Part shown: positions 5,469-28,232 of the stretch, in pieces
How positions within the stretch are numbered: the first letter of the stretch is position 1
Layout: each line of letters starts with the position of its first letter
Assembly: GCA_028819845.1 (NCBI GenBank)
Contig: JAPPKS010000023.1
Span: forward strand, 1-64,000
Direction of reading: 5' to 3'
Source: Candidatus Poribacteria bacterium
GTDB taxonomy: Bacteria; Poribacteria; WGA-4E; PCPOR2b
DNA length: 64,000 nucleotides
Translations under genes and position numbers: made by a program
Notes under the pieces: model-generated
What the model was told of the DNA's origin: nothing
The model's input: the letters and a program-made list of their open reading frames with translations, nothing else
Databases searched by the model: none

Positions 5469-5562
5469 TGGCGGGAGAGGGTGGGAGTCGAACCCACCTA
5501 CCCACTTGCATGGGCAAGCTGGTTTTGAAGACCAGTAGAGCCACCGGACCCTATCCTCTCCC
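5469..5562 (-). tRNA. selC: tRNA-Sec (anticodon UCA)
   Basis: Read on the minus strand, this 94-nt molecule begins GGGAGAGG and ends CCTCTCCC-G-CCA, giving the 8-bp acceptor stem typical of bacterial tRNA-Sec, with an encoded CCA. The anticodon loop 'CTTCAAAA' carries UCA (complement of 5526-5528). The long variable arm (CTTGCCCATGCAAGTGGGTAG) and the T arm 'GGTGGGTTCGACTCCCACC' are complete. Overall it aligns well with E. coli selC, including 'GGTCCGGTGG' in the D region. It lies 54 bp downstream of selB on the same strand, completing a selA-selB-selC cluster. It decodes in-frame UGA as selenocysteine. Confidence 0.95.
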
Positions 5563-5616: not shown

Positions 5617-7542
5617 TTATGAACTCTTTTGCGGAGATTTCCGCAGACGGCGGTGGTTTCCCTCGCGTATCGTGAACCCTCTGCCGTCGCAGTATTCCAA
5701 GAACGGCACAGCATATTTACGGCTAGTCTGCGCAAACTCCCGGAATTCAGCGACGGTAATCACGGTTTTTTCTTGGAGGAAACCGGTAAGCAGATTCATG
5801 GTGTTTTCAAATGTCCGAATATGGACAAAGAAGTCATCTGCAATCTTGACAAGCTGTCCAAGATTTACGAGCGCGTAGAATGTCTCTCGAACCGATTGCG
5901 CGGAATATTCCGGAAGTTGCTCGGTTAGCGCTTTTATATTGGGGACGTTTATACCTGCATCCAAAAAGACGGCTTCAACTTTCTCTTTGATTGCCTCCTC
6001 TTGTTCAGAAAATTGGATTTGATGGGACGCCAAACGCAGGAGGTTTCCGTCTTTAACGACCCGCCTCTGCCGGATTAAATCGCCCACAATCTTCTCGAAA
6101 GCAGTTTCATCGAGGTCAAGTTGTAGACGGAGTTGCGCTGTGTTCTGACCGGGTGCGAGCGGCGTCTCTGCGTGGAAACCCTCCAAGGCGCTGATAAGAT
6201 TGGTTTGCGCCCTTTGCAACCGATCCCTAGCGGCAATAAGCCGGCTGCCACCGTTCCAACGCGTTATTTTATGCTCGCGTTCCAGTGCTTTCAGGATTTT
6301 TTCCAGCGTTGAATTCGGATGGCTGAGATAATACCGCAGAGAGTCTTCCGACAAGCAGAGCTCACTCCTTTGCGCAAGCAGCAGATTTATCACGCCGACA
6401 TCGTCAGCCATATTCCATTGATTGAGCGTATGCGCAGTCGCTTTCGCAAACCGCTTGTGGCGCGGCGCAAACGGATTTATCACCGTACCACCTCCGACGG
6501 TATACTGCGATGCGAAATCGCGGACGATAAGCCGATCTCCCCTGAATGTGAGAATTGGCTTCTCTAAGCGCAATTGGATTTGCGCCGTATCGCCCGGCAA
6601 AACAGCTTCATCCACAAGCAGTATCGCCCGACAAAACGCTTCGCTAGTACCGAGATAAAACCGCAGCCGCGTCCAGTGTTCTAACATTCGCGGAAAGGAC
6701 GACAGCACATGGAGTGAAACATCAACGTTGTCCGTCACTCTTGACAAGCCGATTGTGCAAAGTACATCTCCGCGGCGAATTTCTTCTGTCGTGATGCCCG
6801 AAAGGTTCAATGCGGTCCGCTGTCCGGCGTGCGCTTCCTCGGCTGGACGATTGTGAACTTGTATCCCGCGCACACGAATGTCGCGTCCCTGCGGCAATAT
6901 CATAAGCCGTTGTTCGCGGTGTATGGAACCGTCAATCAGCGTTCCGGTAACGACGGCGCCAAACCCCGGCATGGTAAAAATCCGATCCACATAGAGGCGT
7001 GGAATACCGTTGCGGCTCTCTTTTCCTGCAACAGCCGTGACTCTATCGACAATTGCCTGCTTGAGGCGGTCCACGCCTTCTTCAGTCTCAGCCGACACTT
7101 GCACAGTTGGTGCGCCTTCAAGCGCGGTACCCGCCAACATCTCTTGTGCCATCTCGGTAGATTCAGCTAATTCTTCCGCCGTCACCAAATCAATTTTGGT
7201 CATCACCAATATGCCGGTCGAGATGCCGAGGAGATCGAGGATTTCCAAGTGTTCCAAGGTCTGCTCCTGAACACCCTCCTTCGCATCCACGACTAGCAGC
7301 ACAACGTCCATTCCGTAAGCGCCCGAAAGCATATTCCGGATGAACCTTTCATGCCCTGGCACGTCCACGATTCCGGCGCGTGAACCGTCGGGGAGGTCGA
7401 AATAGGCGAACCCCAACTCGATTGACAGTCCTCGTTCTTGTTCTTCCTTGAGCCGGTCGGTTTCGATTCCTGTAAGGGCGCGAATAAGCGCTGTTTTGCC
7501 GTGGTCGACATGTCCGGCGGTGCCGATGATGACGTGCCGCAT
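5617..7542 (-). CDS. selB: Selenocysteine-specific elongation factor SelB
   Basis: 641 residues, similar to E. coli SelB (614). It delivers Sec-tRNA(Sec) to UGA codons and recognises the SECIS hairpin of the mRNA. The GTPase domain shows G1 'GHVDHGKT' (10-17), G3 'DVPGHE' (60-65) and G4 'TKID' (115-118). EF-Tu-like beta-barrel domains follow ('[15 protein letters not shown]', '[24 protein letters not shown]' region). The C-terminal third resembles the winged-helix RNA-binding repeats ('[21 protein letters not shown]', '[21 protein letters not shown]'), ending with the usual '[11 protein letters not shown]' type tail. The start ATG at 7542 follows 'cagga', and selA ends only 4 nt upstream, so the two genes are translationally coupled. 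Confidence 0.96.
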
Positions 7543-7546
7543 AGCG

Positions 7547-8986
7547 TTATCCTGAATTACGGCTCAGGCCTCCCATGACATTTTTGGCCGCATCGGCGAT
7601 CCAATCCAGTTCCTGCTCACCTATCGTTCGAACGTCCATCCAAAACCGATTATCCTGCGTTCGACCGATTACCGGCCTTGATTGAGTGCGGAAATTGGCA
7701 GCGAGCGCATCCGCGGAGGTGTTTTTCGACTCCAAGACTACTGCGAGGCTGGGTAAAGTTTCAATCGGGAGGGAACCGCTGCCAATCTGTGCGTGACTCT
7801 CTTTGATTGCGACAGTCATGTCTTCACCAAAGACTTGAAGCAGGGACGCTTCTAGTTTCTCGGCAACCGTTCGGAGTTCATACATTGATCGGGTACAGCG
7901 GTAAAGCATAGGGAGATTTTCGATTAGTCTGTCTTCATTGAGATAGAGACGTAAAGTCGCTTCGAGCGCAGCGATTGTCAGCTTTCCGACGCGGAACGCC
8001 CGCATCAGCGGATTTTTGCGAATTTGCCGAATTAATTTCGATTTACCGGCGATAATCCCCGCCTGCGGACCGCCGAGCAGCTTATCTCCGCTAAATGTTA
8101 GGATATCGACGCCCGCCTCAATGCGCTCACGAACGACTGGCTCATAAGGTAAATTGTACTTGGTCAAATCGATTAGCGATCCGCTGCCGAGATCTTCCAT
8201 AGTTGGGATGCCATTCCGATGCCCAAGTTCGGCGACCTCTTCTATGCCTGGCGCCGCGGTAAAGCCGACGATTTTGTAGTTGCTGGGATGCACTTTCAGG
8301 AGGAGCGCTGTGTTCTCGTTGATTGCATTTTCGTAATCCTTGAGATGGGTCCGGTTCGTCGTGCCCACTTCCCGCAGGATTGCCCCACTGGCTTCCATTA
8401 CATCGGGAATTCGAAATGCACCGCCGATTTCAATCAATTCTCCGCGCGAGACGATGACCTCCTTGCCTCGTCCCAATGTGTTCAACGTCAGTAAAACTGC
8501 CGCGGCGTTGTTGTTAACGACGGTTGACGCGCCACAACCGGTCAACCGCTGAAGAATAGGTTCAGTGATAAGATCACGGTGTCCACGATTTCCACTCTCA
8601 AGATTGTACTCTAGGTTGACATAGTTACTGGCGGCTTGACGAATCCCTTCACACGCGGATGTGCTGAGAAGCGATCTACCAAGATTGGTGTGGATGATTG
8701 TCCCGGTCACGTTTATTACAGGCAGGATAGAGGAAGCGGTCATGGATTCAAGTTTAGCGCGCGTAATACCGGCAAGTTGCGCATCATCGGGAACATGCGA
8801 GATTTCACGGTTGGCGAGAATTTGCGTACGAATCTCCGCAACCACTGAACGCAGCGCTTCGGTGACGAGATCCCGGGAATACTGTTCCTGAATGTCGAGA
8901 AACCATCCACGAACCAACACCTGCTCAATGGCAGGTATGCGGCGTAAAGCGGCATGTTGTTTTTCGGTCAGGTTATGTTCGGACAT
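7547..8986 (-). CDS. selA: L-seryl-tRNA(Sec) selenium transferase SelA
   Basis: 479 residues from the ATG at 8986. The frame extends to a GTG at 9058, but family homology begins at '[10 protein letters not shown]' and the extra residues look non-native. SelA converts Ser-tRNA(Sec) to Sec-tRNA(Sec) with selenophosphate and PLP. The N-terminal tRNA-binding domain ('[10 protein letters not shown]') is followed by '[17 protein letters not shown]' and '[15 protein letters not shown]'. The PLP lysine sits in '[13 protein letters not shown]' (K302). It is the first gene of selA-selB-selC. No strong Shine-Dalgarno sequence is seen at 8986. selD, needed for selenophosphate, is not in the window. Confidence 0.95.
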
Positions 8987-9084
8987 TTGTGATTGAAGGG
9001 ATATGACGAGTATAAGATTTGTTAGATTGGATTGATTAGGAAAACGGTCACTTACCACCTTTAGCGCTTTGAAACTTCGATATC

Positions 9085-27399: not shown

Positions 27400-27477
27400 A
27401 AGCCGCATCTCAACCGCTCGGCCGATACCTCGCCCTGTCCCTGTCACAAACGCAGCTTTAATCGTTAGGTTTACCAA
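27400..27477 (-). pseudogene. N-terminal remnant of a short-chain dehydrogenase/reductase
   Basis: Read on the minus strand from the TTG at 27477, the frame gives 'LTIKAAFVTGTGRGIGRAV', the cofactor-binding strand and TGxxxGIG loop of an SDR Rossmann fold. After about 26 residues the similarity stops and unrelated sequence leads to the FRG gene. It overlaps the 3' end of the selenoprotein gene by 20 nt, as a former operon partner might. It looks like a gene cut off by insertion or deletion. Confidence 0.55.
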
Positions 27478-28027
27478 AATCTCTCCCTTCCAGAAAGTCG
27501 TCTAATTCAACTCCGAACGCGTCTGCTATCCGATTGACATAGTTGAAAAAGCCGACAACCTCCACAATGGCGAAGAGCGCCTCGTCGGTAAGTCCATACC
27601 CGCGGAGGCGCTCTAAGTCTGATGGTGTAATAGTGGGCGCGGCTTTTGTTACCTTAACGGCAAATTCAAGGATCGCTTTTGTGGCTTCGTCAATATCAGC
27701 CGTCTGAAAATCCGCCACGATCTGAGCAATCTGCTTGTCAGTGAGTTGTTCCCGCAACTCGTCCGCGTGCGATATTACTCAGTAGCGGCATTCGTTCACT
27801 TTCGATACAACGGTGGCAATCATTTCGCGTTGCATCCGAGTAAGCGGGGACTCTTCGTCGTGCATCACGACTTTGTAGAGTTCAATAAATGCGCGCATAC
27901 TTTTCGGCCGCGCACTGAAAAGTTTGACGATATTGTAAACTCGCCCCACTCGTGCAATTGCCGCGTCGTATTCCTCTTTCACGATGCCAGTTGCATCAGT
28001 CTCTTCTACAGTGTGAATCCATGCCAT
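27458..28027 (-). CDS. CMD/AhpD-like peroxidase-related selenoprotein (in-frame UGA = Sec83)
   Basis: 189 residues if the TGA at 27779-27781 (minus strand) is read as selenocysteine; conceptual translation otherwise stops at residue 82. The two parts are in the same frame and together make one carboxymuconolactone-decarboxylase-like protein of the usual size. The active site reads E-C80-R-Y-U83-V-I-S-H87, where relatives have 'C..C...H', so the UGA replaces the second, redox-active Cys. 'RMQREMIATVVSKVNEC' before it and 'LTDEALFAIVEVVGFFNYVNRIADAFGVELD' after it are typical of the family. GGAG lies 8 nt before the ATG at 28027. A hairpin 18 nt after UGA could serve as SECIS. selA, selB and selC are about 20 kb away. 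The alternative is a nonsense-mutated pseudogene. Confidence 0.85.
27743..27781 (-). promoter_or_regulatory. Candidate bacterial SECIS hairpin after the UGA codon
   Basis: Read on the minus strand, UGA is followed by 18 nt and then GAGUUG-CGGGAA-CAACUC, a perfect 6-bp stem with a 6-nt loop containing three Gs. The apical loop begins 24 nt after UGA, inside the window usual for bacterial SECIS elements, which SelB recognises. The stem is short, so chance cannot be excluded. Confidence 0.6.
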
Positions 28028-28105
28028 CTTTCATTCTCCAATCACAACTGCTAAGCCTTTGTGTCGGGTTTTCATTGTCAAGCAGACACGTCAGTTTGTC
28101 AACGT

Positions 28106-28162: not shown

Positions 28163-28232
28163 CGCTTGTCTGAATCACGGATGGCCGCGGATTAAAGGAT
28201 TTCACGGATTTATTTTACTTCCTCTGCTTACC

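Follow-up and report, generated by a model that had tools for sequence, protein, structure and literature searches.

The window, a 64,000-nucleotide stretch of contig JAPPKS010000023.1 from a Candidatus Poribacteria bacterium (assembly GCA_028819845.1, positions 1 to 64,000), carries on its minus strand a gene at 27458-28027 that standard annotation will truncate at residue 82 or cut in two. The frame opens with an ATG at 28027, closes with a TAA stop at 27460-27458 and contains a sole in-frame TGA at 27781-27779. The initial annotation had described two minus-strand segments in one frame, split by this TGA, which when joined read E-C-R-Y-[UGA]-V-I-S-H; translation bears out both points, giving 189 codons plus the stop and the motif E79-C80-R81-Y82-U83-V84-I85-S86-H87, in which the UGA (candidate Sec83) occupies the second position of CxxU. 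Apart from it, this copy contains no further stop and no frameshift. A Shine-Dalgarno-like GGAGA is intact, and the promoter-like site of the gene is at chance level. Across the whole window, 28 frames are split by a single TGA.

The read-through protein matches the NCBIfam family TIGR01926, peroxidase-related proteins of the CMD (AhpD-like) type, with an E-value of 6.5e-44 and 149.8 bits (cut-off 81.8 bits) over residues 2-174 of 189, and a match of this strength spanning the UGA indicates that the reading frame is more than chance. The Pfam CMD domain is also detected (47.7 bits, E 1.6e-12; cut-off 23 bits), so that the earlier description of a full CMD-family protein stands, with the correction that the closer family, TIGR01926, had been missed. 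Two families annotated as (seleno)proteins, NF041238 (AhpD_rel_CFYUT) and NF053654 (GroundWater_YciW), were considered and set aside, as the protein scores 78.8 and 26.1 bits against curated cut-offs of 175 and 310 bits, respectively. The AlphaFold model (pLDDT 89.3) has 2prr as its best PDB match in Foldseek (TM 0.86, rmsd 1.5, 30% identity), and the AhpD-like helical fold that characterizes TIGR01926 is thereby predicted for the window protein. The alignment of homologues shows no variation at E68, C80, Y82 or H87, and at position 83 it varies only between Sec and Cys. By profile match and a position map that assumes an ungapped stretch of 38 residues, E68-C80-Y82-U83-H87 fall on Glu118-Cys130-His132-Cys133-His137 of Mycobacterium tuberculosis AhpD, which are the published proton-relay set of that enzyme.

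The UGA is a fixed feature of the gene among its relatives. A scan of species genomes yielded 37 homologous loci, and the aligned codon is TGA in 26/26 Poribacteria loci and in nine from Gemmatimonadota, while two loci, L031 from Gemmatimonadota and L038 from an actinomycete, have Cys in the column. A search of 85 Poribacteria genomes, whose matches overlap in many genomes with the 37-locus scan, returned 54 matches from 51 genomes, 49 of them with the in-frame TGA; the remaining five are two fragments that fall short of the column and three distant Cys paralogues of 30-32% identity. Every Poribacteria homologue above about 35% identity that covers the column has TGA, including all 27 rows of clade A, to which the window gene belongs, and in close homologues the codon is never TAA, TAG or Cys. 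In the Cys homologues the second Cys of CxxC thus stands opposite the UGA, which is conserved in related genomes; these are two of the checks that the initial annotation had proposed. Neither a column devoid of Cys and Sec nor additional stops and frameshifts, which it had named as grounds for rejection, were found in the window copy or its close relatives. Comparison of the window gene with eight homologues gives a dN/dS of 0.07-0.25 upstream of the UGA and 0.06-0.18 downstream of it (the pair with L037 could not be scored downstream), and these low values after the UGA indicate that the region behind it is constrained as protein. Among more distant relatives, extra stops occur in G022 and G025, which may hold decaying copies. 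The clade B copy of G022 (L061, G022:C1:3747719-3748219), which is probably a pseudogene, carries, within the SECIS stem, a TAG in place of the CAG of its relatives, the pair being kept as A-U, together with a second TGA, and the clade C copy of G025 (L065, G025:C150:71636-72067), possibly a decaying one, has a TAA in addition to the TGA. No relatives of the gene were found in the phage collection or among viral contigs.

Downstream of the UGA lies a predicted bacterial SECIS hairpin, GAGUUG-CGGGAA-CAACUC (27743-27760, minus strand). Its six-pair stem starts 18 nt after the UGA, as had been noted from the letters, and its 6-nt loop, CGGGAA, starts 24 nt after it. The published bSECIS rules call for a stem of 4-16 bp, a loop of 3-9 nt with a G in its first two positions, a loop distance of 16-37 nt from the UGA and an MFE of -7.5 or lower (PMC13188914). 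The window hairpin fits them with 6 bp, a 6-nt loop, 24 nt and -7.9 kcal/mol, the energy being reached only with flanks (the 18-nt core alone has -5.4 kcal/mol). The flanked fold has a z of -1.2, and a 54-nt fold starting at the UGA prefers a different structure over the six-pair hairpin. SECIS-like hairpins also follow 6 of the 28 frames split by a single TGA in the window, the present gene among them, for which reason the hairpin alone was rejected as proof; it is weak by itself, and the case is carried by homology, UGA conservation and covariation.

The hairpin covaries; the sequences are related, and the counts are therefore not independent events. In 24 distinct clade A sequences all hairpin cells pair, compared with 18-46% for slid partners, and in clades A and B together 99.4% of cells are paired against 18-42% in slid controls. 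Three of the six pairs show changes on both sides across the two clades (G-C/C-G/A-U, U-A/C-G and G-C/A-U), none of 500 shuffles reaches the observed covariation score or paired percentage, and RNAalifold returns six pairs identical to those proposed. At the codon level, positions 91-96, which overlie the hairpin, show the strongest synonymous constraint of any six-codon window in the gene; Leu91 is TTG in 27/27 sequences, although less than one fifth of the leucines in these genes are encoded by TTG, and the six pairs are kept in 27/27 clade A sequences as opposed to a mean of 11% under synonymous recoding. In clades A and B the hairpin starts about 18 nt after the UGA, with stems GAGUUG or GACCUG. 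The distant clade C Poribacteria (L062-L066) and Gemmatimonadota (L027-L036, except the Cys copy L031) appear to use another hairpin that begins some 10 nt behind the UGA (ACGCAGA-GUU-UCUGCGU; ACGGAG-AGGAU-CUCCGU).

The machinery for selenocysteine is encoded in the same window, as the initial annotation had recognized: tRNA-Sec (selC) at 5469-5562, found by ARAGORN, the Sec-specific elongation factor selB at 5617-7542 (TIGR00475, E 1.2e-111) and the Sec synthase selA at 7547-9058 (TIGR00474, E 2e-178), all on the minus strand. Elsewhere in the genome, outside the window, selD (G000:C10:184709-185632) has an in-frame UGA of its own in a CAGU motif, KCAG[UGA]ASK, the usual form of Sec-containing SelD; a possible hairpin lies behind that UGA. 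The genome therefore holds selA, selB, selC and selD, the complement expected of a bacterium that makes selenoproteins. Within the phylum, selB exceeds the cut-off in 76/85 genomes and the selenoprotein gene is present in 51/85, so that co-occurrence of the two is uninformative. Five genomes (G029, G032, G048, G059 and G060) have the TGA gene and no selB over the cut-off; all are at most 83% complete.

Taken together, the conservation of the UGA, the covarying hairpin, the family match, the machinery and the active-site alignment make it very likely, on sequence grounds, that the UGA is decoded as Sec, as first proposed, and there is little doubt in our reading that the gene encodes a TIGR01926 AhpD-like selenoprotein with UGA83 decoded through SelB and the downstream hairpin. 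The hairpin just after UGA83 would recruit SelB with Sec-tRNA-Sec, and the Sec-tRNA-Sec borne by SelB would be used to read the codon as selenocysteine. Sec83 would then stand at the position of AhpD Cys133, with Cys80 and the proton-relay residues E68, Y82 and H87 as partners, and with them it should give rise to a selenenylsulfide as the enzyme cycles as a thiol-dependent peroxidase or disulfide reductase. What we infer here is the incorporation of Sec, the peroxidase chemistry and the substrate.

In clade A relatives the gene lies between a gene for a 427-aa protein upstream, which is without a family match, and one for an SDR oxidoreductase downstream, while its present neighbours in the window encode a Fic/Doc protein and an FRG-domain protein. 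Stubs of both usual partners are apparent on the minus strand. That of the SDR oxidoreductase (27400-27471; tblastn E 1.3e-4, 62.5% over 24 aa) retains 24 residues and has lost its start codon, and a continuous DNA alignment of 83% over 653 nt runs through the gene into it. The apparent upstream stub (about 28030-28067), about a dozen codons ending in RHKGLAVVIGE and a TGA, was recognized by eye in comparison with L004; it is a short stretch that was not among the tblastn matches, and the DNA alignment reaches its last ~20 bases. A 45-nt dispersed repeat (28166-28210), which occurs in many copies here and in related genomes, lies about 100 nt beyond the upstream end of the fragment. The tree places the window gene within clade A, whose members come mostly from another family of the order (a 15-row group, 99/90), rather than beside clade B, which represents the gene's own family. 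One genome of that own family, G017, has one copy from clade A and one from clade B. The stubs of both partners and the clade A placement, which the initial annotation did not mention, together with the two copies of G017, suggest that a fragment of about 0.7 kb was acquired horizontally; ancient paralogy with loss of the partners is less likely. A broader picture, in which the SECIS was re-invented or relocated within one family and the window gene is a captured stand-alone fragment that carries its own SECIS without its operon partners, seems to us evenly balanced between true and false.

The end branch of the window copy is longer than in its sisters (0.16 vs about 0.03) and its operon partners are lost, which means that it might have been silenced recently. 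That the family is a functional selenoprotein and the window copy a transferred passenger, no longer expressed, would agree with the stubs on both sides, the lost SDR start and the lack of a significant promoter, but the reading is an unlikely one, given that the GGAGA, the catalytic residues and the hairpin are all intact and that dN/dS between this copy and its sister is 0.12 overall and 0.087 downstream of the UGA. Far less probable still is a pseudogene in which the UGA really ends translation: the missing partners, the longish branch and the damaged clade B copy of G022 would fit such decay, yet the same codon is UGA in dozens of genomes, this copy is free of other lesions, dN/dS stays low behind the UGA and the hairpin covaries. 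The insertion of some other amino acid, by general recoding or near-cognate readthrough, would equally leave the frame open past the UGA, but it can hardly be credited: distant relatives have Cys in the column, the window holds Sec machinery and a SECIS-like hairpin that covaries, and its other genes are closed by ordinary stops.

Read as a selenoprotein, the gene adds a well-supported group, present in 51 of the 85 genomes searched, to the sponge-associated phylum Poribacteria, and its product is, as predicted from sequence, very probably a selenium-containing enzyme of the antioxidant type. The group also provides a natural series of covarying SECIS elements and an instance in which a selenoprotein gene has apparently moved laterally. 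The CxxU AhpD-like type itself is already known, and the window gene adds a Poribacteria member to it: studies of the Sargasso Sea in 2005 (PMC1088965) and of the GOS data in 2008 (PMC2398784) described AhpD-like/CMD CxxU selenoproteins, and TIGR01926 appears with CxxU in a 2026 review (PMC13188914), which assigns one such family to it and cites the Sargasso Sea work; the initial annotation did not mention this entry. Among the papers searched, none combined Poribacteria and selenoproteins.

Among characterized proteins, M. tuberculosis AhpD (1gu9/1knc) shares the active-site positions Glu118, Cys130, Cys133 and His137 with the window protein, which differs in having Sec for Cys133 and Tyr for His132, the latter as in Pseudomonas aeruginosa PA0269 (PMC3141380), and overall similarity to AhpD remains remote (profile E 0.0011). 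The best relatives with solved structures are the TIGR01926-like peroxidase-related proteins 2prr, 2pfx, 2oyo, 3c1l and 6k40, with ~30% identity and TM of about 0.8-0.86; in the three for which alignments were displayed (2pfx, 2oyo and 3c1l), the second position of the motif is Cys, in contrast to the UGA of the window gene. NF041238 is a related CxxU domain, but the window protein lies under its cut-off. The known AhpD-like CxxU selenoproteins resemble the window gene in the CMD/AhpD family, the CxxU motif and the bacterial SECIS after the UGA, whereas the window gene differs from them in belonging to Poribacteria, with clades and operon partners of its own.
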